A stretch of 34,179 nucleotides of DNA, from contig DATKZX010000011.1 in assembly GCA_035527755.1 (NCBI GenBank), forward strand, positions 1-34,179. Reading direction: 5' to 3'. Numbering within the stretch: position 1 is the stretch's first letter; every line of letters begins with the position of its first letter. The translations under genes were made by a program, and so were the position numbers. The DNA comes from Methanomassiliicoccales archaeon. GTDB lineage: Archaea > Thermoplasmatota > Thermoplasmata > Methanomassiliicoccales > UBA472. This document shows positions 3,450 to 31,320 of the stretch, in pieces. The notes beneath the pieces are model-generated. The model was not told the origin of the DNA. It ran no database searches and was given only the letters and a program-made list of their open reading frames with translations.

Positions 3450-6065
3450 CTAATCCTCCTCTTCCCTGGGTAGCTCTTCCTGCTCCGGCTCCTCCTCAGA
3501 GACGGATAACAAAGAATCACCATGTAATTCGGCCTCCTGGACGGCTAGTTCCTCTTTCCGTCCGGCCAACCGGGCTAGGGCGATGATCTTGTCCCCGTCC
3601 CGCAGGTCCATGATCGTGACACCTTGAGTGTTACGACCCATGACCCTGATGTCGGCGACGCGGATACGTTGGACCATTCCGTTGACGGTCGCAAGTATGA
3701 GCTCATCATCCTCTTCGACCTCCAGGACCGAAACGACGTCGCCATTGCGACCTTCGGTGCGGATGGTGATAACTCCCTTGCTGCCACGGTGCGTCTTACG
3801 GTAGGTGTCCCGCTCGTCATCAGCGTCCTTCTTGCCCACCACCGATATCTTACCGTAGCCGTTCTCGGTGACGGTGAGGAGTCGGGACTCCGAGGTCACT
3901 ATGGCCATGCTGACCACCTCGTCGCCCTCTTCCGGACGGATACCGATGACGCCGTGCGCCGGGCGGCCCATTGGCCGGACCTGACTCTCATCGAAGCGCC
4001 CGGCAAGCCCTTTCCTGGTGGCCAGGATGATCTCCTTCATCCCGTCGGTGATCTTCACTTCCACCAGATGATCGCCCTCCTCCAGTCCTACAGCGATGAG
4101 ACCGCGGGAGCGGATGTTCGCATAGGCTTTCAGCGGTGTCTTCTTGATGATACCACGGCGAGTGGCGAACACCAGGTAATGGTCGCCGCCCATGTTCGTC
4201 ACCGCACGGGTGGCCATGATCTTCTCTCCATCCTCCAATTTCGGCAGAAGGTTCACAATGGGCTTCCCTTTGGATTGACGGCTGCCAACGGGCACGTGCC
4301 AGGCCTTGAGCGAGTACATCTTACCCATGTTGGTGAAGAACAGCACCATGTTGTGGGCCATACAGACGAAGAGGTCCGTCACCACGTCCTCCTCCTTTGT
4401 TTCCATGCCCATTAGGCCGACACCCCCGCGACGCTGCTGTCTGTAGGTGTCCAGCGGCATGCGTTTTATGTAACCGTCCTGGGTGGTCATGAGCACCATC
4501 TCCTCGTTGGGAATAAGGTCTTCGATGTCCATGTCCAGGGCATGGGCGACGATCTCGGTTCGCCTCTCGTTGCCGTACTTCTGTTTCATCTCCAGTGTCT
4601 CGGCCTTTATGATGTTGAGAATTCGTGGCTCGTTGGCGAGTATGTCCTCCAGGTCGCGGATGAGCTTCTCTATCTCCAGGAACTCGGCCTTGATGGACTC
4701 CAACTCCAGACCGGTCAGTTTCTGTAACCTCATGTCCAGGATGGCTTTGGCCTGCTCCTCGTCCAGCTCGAACCGTGCTATGAGACCGTTGCGGGCCTCC
4801 TCAGGACTATTGGCCGATCTGATGATGCGCAGCGTGTCGTCCAGATCGCTGATGGCCTTTACAAGCCCTTGTAATATATGGTCACGCTTTCTGGCCTGTG
4901 CCAGGTCATATTGTGTACGGCGAACGATCACTTCGTGCCGGTGCTTGATGAAATACTGCATCTCCTCCTTTAGAGTGAGCACCCTGGGTTGATTGTCCAC
5001 CAATGCCAGATTTATGACCCCGAAGGTCTGCTCCATCTGAGTGTGACTGAACAGCTGATTGAGCACAACCTCTTCCATGACGTCCTTGCGCAGTTCAATG
5101 ACTATGCGCATACCATCGCGATCCGATTCGTCCCGCAGGTCGGTGATGCCTTCGATCCTCTTGTCCTTGACCAGTTCGGCGATGTTCTCTATGAGTTTGG
5201 ACTTGTTGACCTGGTATGGTATCTCGTCGACGATGATGCGCTTGCGGTGCTCCAGTTCCTCGAAGCGAGCTTTCGCCCGTACCTTCAGTTTACCGCGCCC
5301 GGTCTGGTAGGCCTCGATGATCCCATTGAGGCCGTAGATGGTACCACCAGTGGGAAAATCTGGACCTTTGATGAACTGCATGAGGTCCATTATCTCAGCC
5401 TCGGGGTTATCAACCAGATAGATCAGGGCGTCAGCTACCTCCGATAGGTTGTGCGGCGGCATATTGGTGGCCATGCCCACGGCTATACCGGCAGAGCCGT
5501 TGATCAGCAGGTTCGGCAGTTTAGAAGGCAGGACCAGAGGTTCCTTCAACGAATTGTCGAAGTTGTCCCCCCATTCGACCGTCTCCTTGCCCAGGTCGGC
5601 CAGCATGTCCTCGGCTCTCTCCTGCATGCGGCATTCTGTGTACCTCATGGCCGCCGCCTCGTCCCCGTCCACGGAACCGAAGTTACCCTGGCCATCGACC
5701 AGTGTATATCTTAGGGAAAAGTCCTGGGCCATTCGTACCAACGAATCGTAAACGGCAGTATCGCCATGTGGGTGATATTTACCCAAACACTCACCCACTA
5801 CCCTGGCGCTTTTCTTGTGCGCCTTGTTGTGATTGAGCGACATGTCGTACATCGAGTATAAAATGCGTCTGTGAACCGGTTTCAGTCCGTCCCTGACGTC
5901 CGGTAGCGCCCGAGAAACGATGACGCTCATGGCGTAGTCGATGTAGGACTTCTTCATCTCCCCCTCTATGGACTGGGGAACGACCTTGTGCGTGCCGGCG
6001 TCAGGGACCTTGACATCCCCCGCGCTCTGATCCGGGGCCTGCTGGTTAGAGTTGTCTTCCGTCAT
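3450..6065 (-). CDS. gyrA: DNA gyrase subunit A
   Basis: Breakage-rejoining subunit of type IIA topoisomerase, which with GyrB introduces negative supercoils using ATP. At 871 aa it is the usual GyrA length. The catalytic tyrosine is in [11 protein letters not shown] (Y142 from the ATG). The quinolone-region motif is [10 protein letters not shown], with Thr at the position of E. coli Ser83 and Asp kept at the Asp87 position. A GyrA box QRRGGVG at ~544-550 begins the C-terminal beta-pinwheel, which identifies gyrase rather than ParC or Topo VI; the last box position is Val instead of the common Lys. The tail is strongly acidic ([15 protein letters not shown]). The frame runs to a GTG at 6074 that forms part of the GAGGTG Shine-Dalgarno; ATG 6065 is the likely start. 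It follows gyrB by 10 bases. Archaeal gyrases are thought to derive from bacteria. Confidence 0.97.
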
Positions 6066-6075
6066 TTTTCTCACC

Positions 6076-8052
<1,977 letters not shown>

Positions 8053-16043: not shown

Positions 16044-16058
16044 GGAGTGGATCACTCC
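16044..16058. terminator. Small hairpin between thi4 and lhr
   Basis: GGAGTG-GAT-CACTCC is a perfect 6-bp stem with a 3-base loop in the 13-base gap between the two convergent stops. No long T-run follows, so a role in termination is only possible. Confidence 0.3.
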
Positions 16059-19000
16059 TCCTGCCCCATCACCTTTCCCAGGAACTCCTGGATCTCCCAG
16101 TCCGGGATGGCCTTGGTCCTCTTCTCCCTTATCGTCCACCCCATGGTGGAGATGAAATCCTTCAAGACCTTCTTCGCTTCCCTTTCACCCTGCATGTCGA
16201 CGATCGACAGGTCCTTACCGCTGTGACGGGAGCGGAAGCAACCTATGACCAGGGGACCGCGCATCACGAGACTGCCCATGCCCCCGCACTTCTCCCTTAT
16301 GAGGTCGTACAGGTAATGTGCCATGTTGTCGAACTGATAGATCACGAGGTCTCTGTCCTTCACCTGACGGCCGATGTTCCCCGCGTCCTTTCTGAGCACC
16401 CAATGCACCGCGTCGCCTCCCTTCTCCAGAAATCCTTTGACCAGGAATCCTTCGTCCGTCAGTTCGGCAAGGAGAGAGCGCAGTTCACGCATGGACATCT
16501 CAAAGCGTATGTAACGGGAGAGGTTTTCGGCGGTGAAAACACCGAAATTGCGGAATAGCAGCTTTATAAACTTCGATCTGGCCTCCCTCACCCCTTCCCC
16601 GGAGAGCGGTATCAGTGTGATGCGGTTGCTCCTGCCGTAGCCGATGGCCGTAGCCTTGCTCAGTTCCCGCAGCGCGTCCTGCGTCCTCGCCGGACCAAGG
16701 GTGGACAGGTCGAAGAAGGCTCGGCGGGACATCGGTCCCTCGTGCTCCAGCATGCGCACCATGGCCCGGGCGTCTGCGGACAGCTCCCTGCCCTTGGCCT
16801 CGCGGTACAACGAGGCCCATTTCATGTTGGTGTACATCATGTGTTCCGGCAGCCCGCTGACCAGGTAGAGGGACCCCTGCTCGACCAGACGTTTCAGCGG
16901 CACCTTCACCCGACACCTTTGAAAAGCAGCGGGATCGCCCCGGAACCCGCCGCAGTGCTTTACCCCATCCAGTACGTTGGGGTAGGCCTCCCGGGGAAGC
17001 AGCCCTTGCTTATGCATCGCGTAGCGTAACAGTTGCTCGGCGGAATACTGTTCCTCGACCGTCGCCCCCTTGGCCCACATGCCCTCCAGGTGTAGGTAGC
17101 CGGCGGTCTTCAGGGCCTCGGCGGCCTCCCCTGTCACCTCATCCGCGGCCACCCCCAGCACCTCCTTTACCCTTACCAGGTCGTAACCTTGAGCGGATTG
17201 GAAGTCCAGCAATGGTTTAAGGGCCTCCAGGACCAGGGGCAGGTCCTCCTCTTGGTCCAGATCTATGGCGCGCAGTTCCATGCAACCGCCCATGTCCCAT
17301 TTCTCCATGCCTCCGACCACCCGGCCTTGGCGAAGGATAGGGAACACCCATGAGTCACCGAAGCGAGCGTTGATCTCCGCCCACTGCAGCTGGGCGGAGG
17401 GATCGTAAAGACTGACCACCGCCCATTCCTCCTCCCGAGGGGCCTGCATACTTAACGCCGGCAGTTCATCGCTCATGATGAACATGTCCGAAGCCGTCTC
17501 GCCCACGGTGATCTTCTCCACCTCCAGACGGGAGAGTATGTCCTCTATCTCATAGGGGGAGAAATCGGTGTACATGCGTATGGCGAAGAGGGGGACGGGA
17601 CCGTAGGCCTTGATGAACCGTCGGACGATGTCTTCCTTAGGGTCCCCGTTGAACTCGGGCGCCTCATACGTCTGGTAGTAGTTCTCCCGGGACCAGTCCT
17701 CGCCCTCGTCGTACCTGCGTACCAGGTACATGTTGCGATCCAGACGGTCCAAGGATTCCTTGACCACCTCCTTGACCTCGCCCATGTCCGCCGCCAGGTG
17801 CCTCATGCTGGCACCATCAAGATCGTTGAGGTTCTGCAGTACCAGTCTGTCCTGGGCGTTTGGGGACAGATTACGATAGGCCTTGACATACATAGGGGCG
17901 TCGCAGGCAAGCACATACCTCACCTTGCCGCGCATGAAGCGACCGCTCAGGACCTTGCCGCTCTCGCGCATCTCCTTCCAATCTTCCAGTTGGAAATCTT
18001 CCACGCGGCGGGCCACGTCGAACAGCATTCCCATCTCCCCGTAGTTCCGGAGACACTCTTCGATGGTGCCGAACTTTCGTTCCAACTTCGACCGCTGATA
18101 GGCGTCCACGGTTAGGTGGTCGTATACTTCTTTACCGTGCTTTAATCGCAGGTGGTCCCGCTTGAGCATGTACTGCTCGTGCTCCCCCACGATGAAGCGC
18201 CCCTCTTCCAGCAACCCTTCCTCGGTCATCTGGCTCAGGGCGGTTCGCACTTCCGCCTCGGGCAGATGAAGGGCGAAGGCCCCCTCGTCGGCGTTCAATG
18301 GCGCCCAATATCCCAGGTGGCGCTGCAGTGCCTTGTCGATGGCCTTCTGCCGGGGTATCGTCATGATCTCTCGGGCCTGATAGACGAACCTGCCCCTGGC
18401 CTGATCCACGCGCCCCACGATGTTGTGGGACTCCAGGGAGCGGAGGAGTATGCCGGTTGCTTCCCGGTCAACGCCCATCATCTTCTCCAGTTCTGCCGCC
18501 GTTCGAGGGTCCCGCAGATATTCCAATGCCCTGGTCTCCTCTGCGCTCAGCTTCTTCGGTTCGCTCAGGGACGCATAGATCGGCAGGTGCTCCGTCGCTA
18601 CGTAGTACACATCGTCCAGATGCACCGAGGCTATCTTTCCCTCGGTCAGAAGTTCCGAGGCCCACTGGTCCACCTGCTCCCGGGAGGGACGGCAGTATGG
18701 ATACACGCTGCGGCCCTTCTCCTTGAATATATGAAGAGGACCGGCCCGGGATATGAGCGATAGGAGCGACGCCTTTTCCTCGACTATACCACGCTTTCCC
18801 CGGAAATATGACGAGACCGCCGCCTCCTCGAACTGGAAGCTCTGTCCATCGCCGAGCACTTTGGACAACACCTTGCGATGCAGTTCCCGCAGTAAGGATG
18901 AGCGGTCCTCCATCATTACGATATCGGATATGCCTGCCAGTACGATATTGTGCCCGAAGGGGGAAGGTATTGGAGTGTAGGGGAGCAGGTTTATGATCAT

Positions 19001-21412
19001 CTCCCCTGATTCCATGGAACGGACCACGGACTCGGCGTTCTGGATGTCCATTACATCCTCCAGCACCTCGCGGTAGGTCTCCTCGATGACCGGGACCGAT
19101 TCCAGCTCCGTCAGGTAATCCAATAGGTAGGAGGAACGCACCTGTTGGCGATTGACCGATACCTCTCGCCCTTTGTAATTGCGCAATACCATGAAGGACC
19201 GGGCGGCCACGTGGCGGAAGCGCTGCTTGAATATCTCCGAATCCTTGACCGCTCGGCGTAGGATGCCGCGCATCTCCCCCGACCGTATGAGCCCCGGAAC
19301 GAGGTTCAGGTCCACTCTCCTGGGCGCCACCAGCAGGAAGGCGTCATCGGATATGGAGACGCTGATGTTACATCCCAGCTGTTGTGTGAGCAGGAAGGCG
19401 TACGTTCTGGACAACGCGTCGTTCACCCTTCGTCCGAAGGGGAAGTGGAAGATCAGACCGCTGTTCCCCTGCTTGTCCGTGTAGCCTTCCACCAGCAGGC
19501 GGCGCTGATTCGGTATGGAGGAGGCGGCCTTCTGCTCCTGGAAGTAGTGCAGTAATGATAGAGCGGAGCCGTGGTCGATGGCGAAGTTGTCCATCAACCA
19601 TTGCAGCACCTCTCCCTCCTCATCGTTCAGACGGTTCTCCATCTCGCCTCTGAAACGGGCGATCTCCATGGAAAGGTCGAACGAACGGGGCAGCATCTCC
19701 CCGGTCCAGGAGGGCACCGTTGGTTTGCGCCCAGGCGACGAGCGCACGAACACCCTCATCCCCTTTGCCCTGACGAACTCGTACGGGCGTCCACCCAGGA
19801 TGAATACGTCCCTGACGCTCAGACGCTCCACGAACTTCTCCGAGAGGTCTCCCACCATCCCTCCTCTCTCGTTGTAAACCTTGTAGGATGCCTCCTCGGG
19901 GATGGTGCCTTGATTGAGGAAGTATATCATGCGGGCACCTTTCTTTTTCCCGAAGATGCCTTCCTCTGGGTCGTACCATATCTTTGGGTACACGCCCTCG
20001 AACGCATCCTTGCTCCCCAGGTACCGCAGCGTCTGCTGGAACGATTCCAGGCTCAGATCGCGATAACAGTAGGAGCAGCGCACCATTCGCAGCGCCTCAT
20101 CCACCGTCCATCGTTTCTCCAGGGACATTCCTACCAGGCTTTGGGCCAACACGTCCAGGCAGTTCTCGGGGATGCTCACCCGGTCGATATTGCGTTTGTG
20201 GGCCGCACGGCTGAGGACCGCACACTCCACCAGATCGTCCAGGTCCAGGACCATCATGCGGCCTTTGGGCGTCTTGCCCACGGAGTGCCCGCTACGGCCT
20301 ATGCGCTGCAACCCTTTCGCCACGCTCTTCGGCGAGCCTATCTGGCAGACCAGGTCGACCGAGCCGATGTCGATGCCCAGCTCCAGTGATGTTGACGAGA
20401 CCACGCACCTAAGATCACCTTTCTTAAGGCGGTCCTCGACCTCGATGCGCGTCTCCTTGGACAGTGAACCGTGGTGTGCCTCCACGCTTTCCAGGCCCCG
20501 CTCCCTTAGCTTGTAGACCACCTGCTCCGTGCCAGAACGGGTGTTGGTGAAAATGAGCGTCGTCTGGTGCGCGTCCACCATCTCCTTCAAGGTATCGTAC
20601 ATGCGAGCGTTGACGATCTCGTAGGGCAGTGCTGTCATGTCCTCCGTTGGGCAGATGACCTCCAGGTCCAGGTTCCTCTTGGTGAGCACTTCTATGAGCT
20701 CCACCGGCCGAACGTGGCCGTCCTCGTAGCCCACCAGATAGGAGGCGATGTCCTCGATCGGAGCCAATGTCGCCGAAAGCCCGATGCGGGTGATGGGGTT
20801 CTGGCAAAGCTCCTGCAGACGTTCCAACGTCAGAGAGAGATGCACACCGCGTTTGGAATCGCATATCTCGTGGATCTCATCCACTATGACGTATTCCACC
20901 TGGGAGAACTTCTCTCGGAACTTGGGCGCCGTAAGCACCAACGCCAGCGACTCGGGGGTAGTGATGAAGATATGCGGCGGCTTGCGCAGTTGCTTCTGCC
21001 TTTCCGCCTGAGAGGTGTCACCAGACCGTACGCCCACGCGCACCTTGGGATACTCGTACCCCTTCTCCTGGGAAAGCTGGTGCATCTGCTGCAACGGCTC
21101 CTCCAGATTTTTATTGATGTCGTTAGCCAATGCCTTCAAAGGGGAGATGTAGACCACGTAGATGCGGTCCTCCAGCTTTCCCTCCTTGGAGTACTTGAAC
21201 AGCTCGTTGATGATGGATGTGAAAGCCGTCAGGGTCTTGCCGGAGCCGGTCGGTGACGACACCAGCACGCTCTTTCTCTCGTGGATCAGAGGGATAGCGT
21301 AGGATTGCGGTTCTGTCAGACCAGCGAACCGAGAGTTGAACCACTCCGCTATGAGAGGGTCCAATAGTGACAACACCTCCTCCTTGGTAGACCTCTTCTT
21401 CACCCTATGCAT
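16052..21412 (-). CDS. lhr: Large helicase-related protein Lhr, very long form
   Basis: About 1786 aa from ATG 21412 (MHRVKKRS); a TTG nine codons upstream is less likely. The core has Walker A SPTGSGKT (~52-60), ISPLKALAND (Ia), TTPESL, DEIH (~178-181), SATLA, TNTRSG, and QRIGRSGH (~370-376), then the winged helix and beta-barrel region ending near LPYTPIPSPFGHN (~860). This is the Lhr-core that unwinds DNA 3'-5' in repair. The remaining ~900 residues contain several winged-helix-like units and, in about 1330-1760, segments such as LQWAEINARFGDSWVFPILRQGRVVG that resemble the AlkZ-like C-terminal domain of E. coli Lhr. Archaeal Lhr proteins are usually 850-950 aa, so this is about twice that and longer than E. 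coli Lhr (1538). No frameshift is seen. Monocistronic. Confidence 0.93.
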   Translation of the reverse strand: MHRVKKRSTKEEVLSLLDPLIAEWFNSRFAGLTEPQSYAIPLIHERKSVLVSSPTGSGKTLTAFTSIINELFKYSKEGKLEDRIYVVYISPLKALANDINKNLEEPLQQMHQLSQEKGYEYPKVRVGVRSGDTSQAERQKQLRKPPHIFITTPESLALVLTAPKFREKFSQVEYVIVDEIHEICDSKRGVHLSLTLERLQELCQNPITRIGLSATLAPIEDIASYLVGYEDGHVRPVELIEVLTKRNLDLEVICPTEDMTALPYEIVNARMYDTLKEMVDAHQTTLIFTNTRSGTEQVVYKLRERGLESVEAHHGSLSKETRIEVEDRLKKGDLRCVVSSTSLELGIDIGSVDLVCQIGSPKSVAKGLQRIGRSGHSVGKTPKGRMMVLDLDDLVECAVLSRAAHKRNIDRVSIPENCLDVLAQSLVGMSLEKRWTVDEALRMVRCSYCYRDLSLESFQQTLRYLGSKDAFEGVYPKIWYDPEEGIFGKKKGARMIYFLNQGTIPEEASYKVYNERGGMVGDLSEKFVERLSVRDVFILGGRPYEFVRAKGMRVFVRSSPGRKPTVPSWTGEMLPRSFDLSMEIARFRGEMENRLNDEEGEVLQWLMDNFAIDHGSALSLLHYFQEQKAASSIPNQRRLLVEGYTDKQGNSGLIFHFPFGRRVNDALSRTYAFLLTQQLGCNISVSISDDAFLLVAPRRVDLNLVPGLIRSGEMRGILRRAVKDSEIFKQRFRHVAARSFMVLRNYKGREVSVNRQQVRSSYLLDYLTELESVPVIEETYREVLEDVMDIQNAESVVRSMESGEMIINLLPYTPIPSPFGHNIVLAGISDIVMMEDRSSLLRELHRKVLSKVLGDGQSFQFEEAAVSSYFRGKRGIVEEKASLLSLISRAGPLHIFKEKGRSVYPYCRPSREQVDQWASELLTEGKIASVHLDDVYYVATEHLPIYASLSEPKKLSAEETRALEYLRDPRTAAELEKMMGVDREATGILLRSLESHNIVGRVDQARGRFVYQAREIMTIPRQKAIDKALQRHLGYWAPLNADEGAFALHLPEAEVRTALSQMTEEGLLEEGRFIVGEHEQYMLKRDHLRLKHGKEVYDHLTVDAYQRSKLERKFGTIEECLRNYGEMGMLFDVARRVEDFQLEDWKEMRESGKVLSGRFMRGKVRYVLACDAPMYVKAYRNLSPNAQDRLVLQNLNDLDGASMRHLAADMGEVKEVVKESLDRLDRNMYLVRRYDEGEDWSRENYYQTYEAPEFNGDPKEDIVRRFIKAYGPVPLFAIRMYTDFSPYEIEDILSRLEVEKITVGETASDMFIMSDELPALSMQAPREEEWAVVSLYDPSAQLQWAEINARFGDSWVFPILRQGRVVGGMEKWDMGGCMELRAIDLDQEEDLPLVLEALKPLLDFQSAQGYDLVRVKEVLGVAADEVTGEAAEALKTAGYLHLEGMWAKGATVEEQYSAEQLLRYAMHKQGLLPREAYPNVLDGVKHCGGFRGDPAAFQRCRVKVPLKRLVEQGSLYLVSGLPEHMMYTNMKWASLYREAKGRELSADARAMVRMLEHEGPMSRRAFFDLSTLGPARTQDALRELSKATAIGYGRSNRITLIPLSGEGVREARSKFIKLLFRNFGVFTAENLSRYIRFEMSMRELRSLLAELTDEGFLVKGFLEKGGDAVHWVLRKDAGNIGRQVKDRDLVIYQFDNMAHYLYDLIREKCGGMGSLVMRGPLVIGCFRSRHSGKDLSIVDMQGEREAKKVLKDFISTMGWTIREKRTKAIPDWEIQEFLGKVMGQEE

Positions 21413-21501
21413 GCCGATACCGCTCCGCTGGAACCACAATCAATCTAACCCATCCCTATTATTATTTTCGCTCGGGCCGCCTGAAAGTGGGCGGTCGATA
21501 G

Positions 21502-28200: not shown

Positions 28201-31200
28201 TCAGTCGCTAGAGATGAGCTTGTAGTGTCCCGCCTGCACCTCGAAGATGTCGCCAGCCTGCTTCAGCTTCTTCAGCACTTCCCGCAGTTCGCCCTCGGAC
28301 AGGTTGCGGTCCGCCGCCCTCTGGATCAGGGTAAGCTCGGAGACCCCGGAACGGGGATCGGAGTGTTCGTGTATCAGCTGCCGCACTAACGCGATGCGGT
28401 TCCGTTCGTTTCGAGTGGTCCCGGTCATCAGCTTGTCCACGTCGATGGTCCCCTCGTCCGAGGCCATCTTTCTCAGATAGTGCTCCACGATCTTGATGGC
28501 GCGGTCGGCGTCCTCATGGGCCACGACCTGCGATAAGCGTATCCGAGCCGATGCTTCGGACAAACGGATGAATGCCTCCAGCTGCCTGGCGGTGATCGGC
28601 ACGGACGACCCTGGCTTCTCCCCCAGTTTTCGTATCGACAGGTATTTGTCGATGATCATCTGCCGGGCATCGTCGCTAAGCACCGGGGTGAACCGTTTGG
28701 CGAAGGCGACGTATTTCCGCATGAACTCCCGGTCGTAGATGGGGCTAAGGACATTCGTTTCATCCATGATGCGCTGGTAATCGATGCCCTTGATGCTTTC
28801 CGGGTTGGGTACGTTGCGCAGTTCGCCTCGAACGTGCCCCTTCAGTATGTGCTCGGCGATGCGTTGGTCCTTCGTGGCGTTCGGTTTGTCGGTCAGGGCG
28901 AAGATCAGGTCGAAACGAGAGAGGAGCGCTGGCGGCATATTGATCTGAGAGGCCAAGGCCTCGGTGTCATCGAAGCGCCCGAACTTGGGGTTCGCAGCGC
29001 CTAGCATGGAACAGCGGCATTGCAGCGAGGCGGTGATGCCGGCCTTGGCCACGCTCACGCGCTGCGATTCCATGGCCTCGTGCATGGAACTGCGGTCCTG
29101 TTCGGTCATCTTGTCCATTTCATCGATGGCCGCCAGTCCCTTGTCCGCGAGGACCAGTGCCCCGGCCTCCAGGGTCCATCGGCCGTCACCGAACTCGTCC
29201 TTGACCGCCGCCGCGGTGTTGTGCACAAGAAATCCGTTTCCGATGAAACTATGCGCGCCTTCTACCGTAAGATCGTATACGAACGGGGGCAGTTCCTCTC
29301 GTACCTCCCGCACCGCCGAAACGCGGGTAGGGAGGGCTTCCCTTGGACCAGAGCCAGCCGTGACGTTGAGCAGCATATCGTCGGCTCTTACGTCTGACGC
29401 TTTTATCCACTGGAAATTGTCTTTTTCTACCCCTCTAAGCAGGGTCTCGGGGGTCACCTTGATCCTATTACCAGCTTCGGTCTCGAGTTCCACAAGAAAT
29501 GAAGGGGTCCGGAGGCGGAATACCGCAGAGATCGGTCGGACGTCTGTATGACATTCTCCTGTGATCGAACGCACTCCGTTGACATGGGCCTCCTGTCGCC
29601 AGACACCGGGCTCGATCTCTCGCGGGGCATTCATGCGCGATTCGACGAAATCGCCTATGGGTCTCTCCCTCCCATCCAATTCGATAAGGGTATCCGGAGC
29701 CACGCAGAGACCGGCCGCGGAGGAGCTTTTACCAGATGCATAGATCCCCCGTGGGGCCATCTCGGACATGTATCTCAAGATCTGACTATTATGGGAGATG
29801 ATCCCGTTCGCCACGAATATGTGGGTGTCCTCGACCTCGATATCGTAAACGAAACGTTCCTCGGCTCGCACCTCTTCCCGCTTGACCACCTGGTCCCAGC
29901 CAAAGCCCCGGTCGTAACCGCAGTGGTTGCCGTCTGGTTTCTGGTCGATCACTGTCGCCAGATAATTGCCTTCCACGATCTTGCTGGCCGCCCTTTGTGC
30001 CAGGAAATAGGCGTTCTGTACGAACAGCGGGTGTGTGGAGGTGACGGTGAGCGTCCTGCCCCCCTTGGTGGTGAACTTGATCAATTTCCGAGGGGAGTCC
30101 CGCTTCCAGACGCGGACCGCCCTCCCTTTCTCCACGTAACCTCTGGTGGTAAAGGTCATGACCTCGAAGTCGGCTTCAGCATACTCTCCGTCTTCGACCT
30201 CCTTCACTTCGCCTTTGGAGATCCAATGGTCCACCAGCTCCTTGATGTTGCTTTCCGAGCAGTCCCCCATGAGCACCTTGGCCTCACCGGTGACGCACTT
30301 GGCCACGCCTGGGTCGCCGACCAGTAGGATGTGTATGTCCCCCCTGATCTTCGTTCCGTCCTCCAGGGTCTTCGCCGTCCCGCCGAAAAGCTGCAGAGCG
30401 ATGGCTTCCTTGACCTCGTCATAACCGTGAATGGCCGGGGCGATGGAACCGACGATCTTGCGGAATACCTCGGGGTCCTTCGCCTCGGTCTTGATGAGCC
30501 CCTCGTCCTCCTCGGAGATCACCACCTCCTCGTACTCGTGCTGCTCGAACTCCAAGGAGAGAACGGAAAGATCGATATCGAACAGCGTCGACTTGATCTG
30601 CGCTCCCTTCTGATGGCTGCGCAGGATGCCGTTGAGCACTACCCTGTCACCCGGGGATATTTTCCCGGCCAGATCGTCCTCCAGGAAAGCAGTGAGCCTT
30701 TCGGGCTGCGCTCCGCCCCTCAGACCCTCGGGGGATTCCTGCATCTCCACCTTCTGCGTGTCCACATAGCGGGAGTCCTCGGCCAGCAGCTGGAACTTGG
30801 TGCTTCCGGCGGTTCGCCCGCAACCCTCCTGCTCCTTGTAGCATTCCATGGGCTCGCGGAAGAACAGGCCGTCCTGCGGTTCGACGATGCGTGCGGGGCA
30901 GCGCAGGCACTTGAACACGCCCATGATCAGGCGTGGGCGTACTTCCGTCGCCTTGCGCACCAGCCCTTCGACGGAAACGAGCTTTCCCAAGTGCTCGCTC
31001 CTCAATAATCGGATCTCAATTCGGCTGTCCCTCGGCAGCTCCCTGATCCGCAGATGGATCTCCAGGTCTCCCCGGGAGGGGTTCATCAGTCGTTTTATAA
31101 CTTCTTCGCCCTTTTGTAGGGAGCGATCGGGATGGCCCAGTATGAACGAGGCGAAATCTGGGTCGAATCTATCGATGTCGGAATAGGTAACGACAAGGCT

Positions 31201-31320
31201 CCTGAGCTCGGGATAACGGTCGGTCAGCTCCAGCAGCTTGAGGCGGTTGTCCTCGGCCTCCAGGAATTCCTCCCACCGGGCGACCAGGTCTTCGTCAGTA
31301 TAGTCGATAGTCAAAACCAT
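28201..31320 (-). CDS. mcm: Replicative helicase MCM with two inteins
   Basis: 1039-aa precursor from ATG 31320 (GTG 31323 and a TTG at 31314 are alternatives); splicing would give a 706-aa MCM, near the usual archaeal length. N-terminal domain with zinc cysteines CLRC (~139-142) and CYKEQEGC (~160-167). The AAA+ core has Walker A GDPGVAK-SQ split by intein 1, then SSAAGL-TAA split by intein 2, Walker B LAAIDEMDKM, sensor 1 ANPKFGRF, the arginine finger region LLSRFDLIFAL and a C-terminal winged helix. MCM unwinds DNA ahead of the replication fork. It follows tsr3 and precedes DUF424 and nmd3 on the same strand. Without splicing of intein 1 there is no ATP site, so splicing is required for function. 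Confidence 0.96.
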   Translation of the reverse strand: MVLTIDYTDEDLVARWEEFLEAEDNRLKLLELTDRYPELRSLVVTYSDIDRFDPDFASFILGHPDRSLQKGEEVIKRLMNPSRGDLEIHLRIRELPRDSRIEIRLLRSEHLGKLVSVEGLVRKATEVRPRLIMGVFKCLRCPARIVEPQDGLFFREPMECYKEQEGCGRTAGSTKFQLLAEDSRYVDTQKVEMQESPEGLRGGAQPERLTAFLEDDLAGKISPGDRVVLNGILRSHQKGAQIKSTLFDIDLSVLSLEFEQHEYEEVVISEEDEGLIKTEAKDPEVFRKIVGSIAPAIHGYDEVKEAIALQLFGGTAKTLEDGTKIRGDIHILLVGDPGVAKCVTGEAKVLMGDCSESNIKELVDHWISKGEVKEVEDGEYAEADFEVMTFTTRGYVEKGRAVRVWKRDSPRKLIKFTTKGGRTLTVTSTHPLFVQNAYFLAQRAASKIVEGNYLATVIDQKPDGNHCGYDRGFGWDQVVKREEVRAEERFVYDIEVEDTHIFVANGIISHNSQILRYMSEMAPRGIYASGKSSSAAGLCVAPDTLIELDGRERPIGDFVESRMNAPREIEPGVWRQEAHVNGVRSITGECHTDVRPISAVFRLRTPSFLVELETEAGNRIKVTPETLLRGVEKDNFQWIKASDVRADDMLLNVTAGSGPREALPTRVSAVREVREELPPFVYDLTVEGAHSFIGNGFLVHNTAAAVKDEFGDGRWTLEAGALVLADKGLAAIDEMDKMTEQDRSSMHEAMESQRVSVAKAGITASLQCRCSMLGAANPKFGRFDDTEALASQINMPPALLSRFDLIFALTDKPNATKDQRIAEHILKGHVRGELRNVPNPESIKGIDYQRIMDETNVLSPIYDREFMRKYVAFAKRFTPVLSDDARQMIIDKYLSIRKLGEKPGSSVPITARQLEAFIRLSEASARIRLSQVVAHEDADRAIKIVEHYLRKMASDEGTIDVDKLMTGTTRNERNRIALVRQLIHEHSDPRSGVSELTLIQRAADRNLSEGELREVLKKLKQAGDIFEVQAGHYKLISSD
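29218..29706 (-). other. Intein 2 in MCM (163 aa, no endonuclease)
   Basis: Inserted at SSAAGL/TAAAV of the AAA+ core. It begins CVAPDTLIEL (Cys1) and ends FLVHN with Thr as the +1 extein residue. Block F is FVYDLTVEGAHSFIGNG, with the penultimate His and terminal Asn present. In block B the expected T-x-x-H is VTPETLL, so the histidine that helps activate the N-terminal bond is replaced by Thr. No LAGLIDADG or other homing endonuclease domain is present. An intein in Thermococcus MCM (CDC21) is known to splice without this His, so activity is possible. Confidence 0.92.
29788..30297 (-). other. Intein 1 in MCM Walker A (170 aa, no endonuclease)
   Basis: Inserted between Lys and Ser of GDPGVAK/SQ, the P-loop. 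Block A begins CVTGEAKVLM; block B is TVTSTHPLFV with T-x-x-H intact; block F is FVYDIEVEDTHIFVANG; block G is IISHN followed by Ser as the +1 residue. All class 1 splicing residues are present. No homing endonuclease domain is seen, so it is a mini-intein, transmitted vertically or formerly larger. Confidence 0.95.

Follow-up and report, generated by a model that had tools for sequence, protein, structure and literature searches.

The gene for the MCM replicative helicase in a Methanomassiliicoccales archaeon (assembly GCA_035527755.1), which lies on the minus strand of a 34,179-nucleotide stretch of contig DATKZX010000011.1 (hereafter the window), encodes a precursor protein interrupted at two positions by inteins of mini-intein size. 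We have little doubt that it specifies a single MCM precursor which undergoes two splicing reactions in cis, that both inteins are immobile and vertically inherited, and that the second (intein 2, at the AAGL^T site) is excised by a compensatory route. Intein 2 lacks the block-B His, and this feature extends to every intein that we compared at the same site. We consider it reasonably probable that AAGL^T inteins form an archaea-wide lineage, including forms of more than 500 amino acids (aa), from which this His is absent as a rule, i.e. that a whole family can do without the "most conserved intein residue", and that in Methanomassiliicoccales its function is taken over by an Arg or Lys together with an invariant Glu-Thr pair.

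Two inteins in the ATPase core of MCM

The product of the gene is identified as MCM by Pfam matches to MCM (1e-81), MCM_OB and MCM_lid, and no second MCM above the family cut-off was found in the 1.68 Mb genome, which is 99.7% complete. Inspection of the open reading frame and its translation bore out all of the numbers given in an earlier note on this DNA, i.e. a reading frame of 1039 aa, inserts of 170 and 163 aa separated by 27 residues, and a spliced product of 706 aa. Searched alone, each insert exceeds the Pfam Intein_splicing cut-off of 35.8 bits (61.7 bits for intein 1, 52.1 bits for intein 2) and passes the cut-offs of TIGR01445 and TIGR01443; the intein profile PF14890, applied to the genome, retrieves these two inteins only. 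AlphaFold models based on alignments of relatives (predicted local distance difference test scores of 92.7 and 93.3 for inteins 1 and 2) predict a Hint fold in both inserts, with the Pyrococcus horikoshii CDC21-1 intein (6rpq) as the top solved match in each case (template modelling scores of 0.89 and 0.90, respectively). The fold alignments cover each insert entirely, and the lengths of both are those of solved mini-inteins. Intein 1 also has its closest sequence match in Pho/Pab CDC21-1 (E about 1e-22; 2e-22 for 6rpq), and a Pfam family search identified no homing endonuclease family match inside either insert.

Intein 1 directly follows the Walker A Lys (GDPGVAK^SQ, the downstream extein beginning SQILRY), fitting the definition of the MCM-a site (PMC10643990; site a below), whilst intein 2 lies between SSAAGL and TAAAV (site b). 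Both carry the terminal residues of class 1 inteins (C...HN^S and C...HN^T, respectively). The earlier description of both inserts as inteins that lack an endonuclease and occupy known MCM sites, of which one lies within Walker A, is upheld by family matches, fold and the lack of an endonuclease match. Its further remark that the inserts begin with Cys and end with His-Asn is true of both, but conceals a difference between them, as the class 1 block-B motif Thr-x-x-His is present in intein 1 (TSTH) and not in intein 2 (TPET).

Empty and filled sites in relatives, the comparison that the note had proposed, were located with an MCM extein query, which gave matches in 94 of the 101 genomes searched. 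In 40 genomes of one family (f2) the queried stretch of MCM runs uninterrupted over both sites, four of these loci having been inspected individually, and the empty sites are accordingly real; both inteins are present in all seven other members of the genus with a detected MCM. The alternative that the two segments are ordinary MCM insertions lacking intein nature is contradicted by the family matches, the Hint fold, the exact C...HN boundaries and the precision of the empty sites, and we regard it as refuted at the level of sequence, its remaining probability being negligible.

Table 1. Positions of the MCM gene and its parts in the window
Feature	Position	Strand	Remarks
MCM replicative helicase precursor	28201..31320	-	1039 aa plus stop; 706 aa once both splicings are done
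N-extein	30298..31320	-	residues 1-341; end GDPGVAK = Walker A as far as Lys
Intein 1 (MCM-a / Walker A site)	29788..30297	-	residues 342-511, 170 aa, Cys1...His169-Asn170, +1 Ser
Intein 1 block B, TSTH, canonical His89	30031..30042	-	
Extein between inteins, SQILRY...SSAAGL, 27 residues	29707..29787	-	
Intein 2 (AAGL^TAA site)	29218..29706	-	residues 539-701, 163 aa, Cys1...His162-Asn163, -1 Leu, +1 Thr
Intein 2 block B, TPET, Thr88 where the normally essential His sits	29443..29454	-	
Intein 2 Arg64, equivalent of Thermococcus site-b Lys58	29515..29517	-	24 residues before block-B position 10, ungapped
C-extein	28204..29217	-	residues 702-1039: remaining ATPase domain, lid, winged helix

In the mechanism that we propose, the precursor would have to splice twice in cis to yield the mature helicase. 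Intein 1 would follow the canonical class 1 route, in which the N-S acyl shift at Cys1 would be aided by Thr86 and His89 of block B, and would be followed by transfer to Ser+1, which would become the Walker A Ser, and by cyclisation of Asn170 with the aid of His169. Intein 2 would proceed through the same four steps with Thr+1, the first taking place without a block-B His; here Arg64 would most likely substitute for the Lys58 described below, with Thr85, Glu87, Thr88 and strain imposed by the bulky -1 Leu as possible contributors. Since the near-complete genome contains no other MCM, it may fairly be inferred that replication depends upon both inteins being spliced out. Neither intein would be expected to home by itself, and both would be transmitted vertically, persisting because a failure to splice would be lethal and exact deletions are uncommon.

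Absence of the block-B His at site b

We compared 56 distinct site-b inteins from Methanomassiliicoccales, Thermococcus, Heimdall-/Odin-type archaea, an Aenigmarchaeota record and Haloarchaea, those from outside the order having been reached by a site-a intein search and hence without selection for block B. None of the 56 possesses the block-B His, as against all 95 inteins at other MCM sites. The residue is missing even from site-b forms exceeding 500 aa, which are long enough for an endonuclease, and from one further Thermoplasmatota case. Thr85, Glu87 and Thr88 are invariant in the site-b inteins of the order (44/44), and a Lys or Arg occupies the Lys58 position in all 56 sequences. A review from 2014 lists just two inteins without this His, one of them a pseudogene (PMC4031507), and in the papers that we read we found no statement on the generality of the His-less state at the AAGL^T site.

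A precedent for splicing without this residue is provided by the experimentally studied Tko CDC21-1 intein of Thermococcus kodakarensis, in which Thr replaces the block-B His and Lys58 serves the first step (PMC4031507, PMC5874633), and in whose orthologues the -1 residue is a bulky Leu (PMC6333167). In the 141-aa site-b inteins that we retrieved from Thermococcus, Leu occupies -1, Thr stands at B:10 and residue 58 itself is Lys, so that they almost certainly belong to this group. Intein 2 shares with the group both the Leu at -1 (AAGL^T) and the Thr at B:10, and the spacing of Arg64 from block B equals that of Lys58 in the Thermococcus site-b inteins; it differs in possessing Arg rather than Lys and, whilst TPET is kept, the remainder has diverged. 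The comparison with Tko CDC21-1 itself is made through these other Thermococcus site-b sequences and review descriptions. Absence of the block-B His from the active Tko CDC21-1 group indicates that TxxH is not an absolute requirement of class 1, and, judged from its sequence, intein 2 very likely splices by this known compensatory route.

It might instead be supposed that intein 2 is degenerate, i.e. that, lacking the block-B His, it is inefficient in splicing or undergoes cleavage alone, leaving the gene either decaying or reliant upon slow splicing. Ratios of non-synonymous to synonymous substitution rates (dN/dS), calculated for the window gene against seven genus members, were 0.03-0.12 for the exteins, 0.07-0.18 for intein 1 and 0.18-0.32 for intein 2, the nearest pair included. 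That intein 2 gives the highest values of any part of the gene and has a lower synonymous guanine-cytosine (GC) content would accord with degeneration, as would the pseudogene status of the other natural intein listed without this His. However, these ratios are well under 1, and both inteins are under purifying selection, which lends indirect support to their excision with ligation of the exteins; none of the 56 site-b inteins has lost Cys1 or the terminal His-Asn; the long site-b forms also lack the His; and the host gene is the sole MCM of the genome. In view of this selection, and with His-less inteins so widespread, we rejected degeneration as very unlikely.

Several considerations do weigh against the explanation proposed here. 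The 56 site-b sequences share ancestry, and represent one or a few ancient changes rather than 56 losses. A Lys or Arg at the Lys58 position is also found in 52 of 53 site-a inteins that retain the His, so that conservation alone is no proof of a compensating role, and our literature search turned up no test of Arg at this position. Finally, we infer, rather than observe, the splicing of both inteins in this organism, and the same applies to the role of Arg64 and to the reason for intein persistence.

Distribution and inheritance

The distances between intein sequences follow those between their host exteins (Mantel rho 0.84 for intein b and 0.58 for intein a, values that 999 permutations never reached), and branching within the genus is identical in the intein a, intein b and extein trees. 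These observations fit long vertical inheritance of inteins that appear both splicing-competent and immobile. Elsewhere among the relatives site a alone is filled in three genomes and site b alone in 13 or 14, and other members carry up to four MCM inteins, some of the inserts being endonuclease-sized. Two further MCM intein sites occur in these relatives, one before the IDE of Walker B (A^C) and the other at AMESQ^S/T. Large site-a inteins of 472 and 539 aa are present in two relatives, and the site-b inteins within the order are all of 149-169 aa.

In searches for an external source of the inteins, the best 10 of 76 viral-contig matches were not MCM, intein 2 had no phage match, and a search of plasmids with a haloarchaeal site-b intein likewise gave none. 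The lower GC content of intein 2 at third codon positions hinted at recent transfer, which was ruled out, as the intein tree follows that of the exteins and the drop in GC recurs in the genus.

Some additional observations concern these inteins and their relatives. Among the genomes listed, all 29 in the group with further MCM inteins have an intein b of lower GC content at fourfold-degenerate sites than the surrounding exteins (mean difference -0.11), with no such drop in the 13 genomes grouped as having intein b alone (mean -0.01), this split being confounded with family membership; intein a exhibits no drop. The MCMs with up to four inteins include those of one family (L067, L068, L071, L073, L074 and others). 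The order has 13 distinct Cys-starting inteins at AMESQ^S/T, and all of them end in Gly-Asn, the penultimate His being absent. Outside the order, L097 and L100 (Thermococcus) and L147 (Heimdall-type) have MCM inteins at three or four sites, the positions including Walker A, AAGL^T, Walker B and AMEQQ^. Elsewhere in the window, gyrA and gyrB are neighbours at 3450-8040 (minus strand), and positions 16052-21439 (minus strand) encode a 1795-aa Lhr-type helicase (WH_Lhr, DEAD_assoc and an AlkZ-like region) that is without an intein and whose length seems unusually great for an archaeal Lhr.

Conditional splicing and comparison with known systems

The earlier note had raised the possibility that MCM activation is sensitive to redox state or temperature. 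On such a reading one or both inteins would act as a post-translational switch holding MCM inactive under oxidation or in the cold, as has been proposed for intein 1 of Mycobacterium smegmatis DnaB. A P-loop intein of a replicative helicase can indeed respond to oxidation (PMC6195587), and intein 1 possesses, besides Cys1, a non-catalytic Cys126 that is kept in 8/8 genus members compared. This residue may be regarded as the sole redox lead, the analogy being with M. smegmatis DnaBi1 (PMC6195587). However, Cys126 falls in the loop of intein 1 that is modelled with the lowest confidence, no extein Cys adjoins either junction, and Cys52 of intein 2 is common to its nearest relative alone. Nothing specific in the sequence appears to favour redox or temperature control, and we consider such a switch improbable.

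Otherwise, the resemblance to M. smegmatis DnaB (PMC6195587) is that of a replicative helicase with two inteins, one of which is a P-loop mini-intein; DnaBi1, however, is a class 3 intein with a Cys toggle, whereas the inteins described here are, as judged from sequence, of class 1. Haloarchaeal MCM, for which four intein sites (MCM-a/b/c/d) are described (PMC10643990), shares the Walker A site and the presence of several close sites within one MCM, and the haloarchaeal AAGL^T inteins are, like intein 2, without the block-B His. In contrast to the two endonuclease-free, vertically inherited inteins here, those studied in Haloferax (PMC10643990) carry endonucleases and home.

The closest parallel is Cdc21 of Pyrococcus abyssi, which contains two endonuclease-free inteins, one in the P-loop and one 27 residues downstream (PMC6801210). 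The positions of PabCDC21-1 and PabCDC21-2, and the 27-residue spacing, match those of inteins 1 and 2, and Pab/Pho CDC21-1 is nearest to intein 1 in both fold and sequence (34% identity over the fold alignment). The systems differ in the host, here a member of the Methanomassiliicoccales, and in the length of the second intein, PabCDC21-2 having 268 aa against the 163 aa of intein 2 (compared by description). The novelty that the earlier note implied for the pairing does not, therefore, hold: the double MCM mini-intein arrangement is already known from P. abyssi (PMC6801210), and the present case adds another lineage. More useful than the pairing itself is that intein 2 belongs to a large, old family without the block-B His, the natural site-b sequences of which constitute a ready panel for the study of His-free catalysis of the first splicing step and for engineering.
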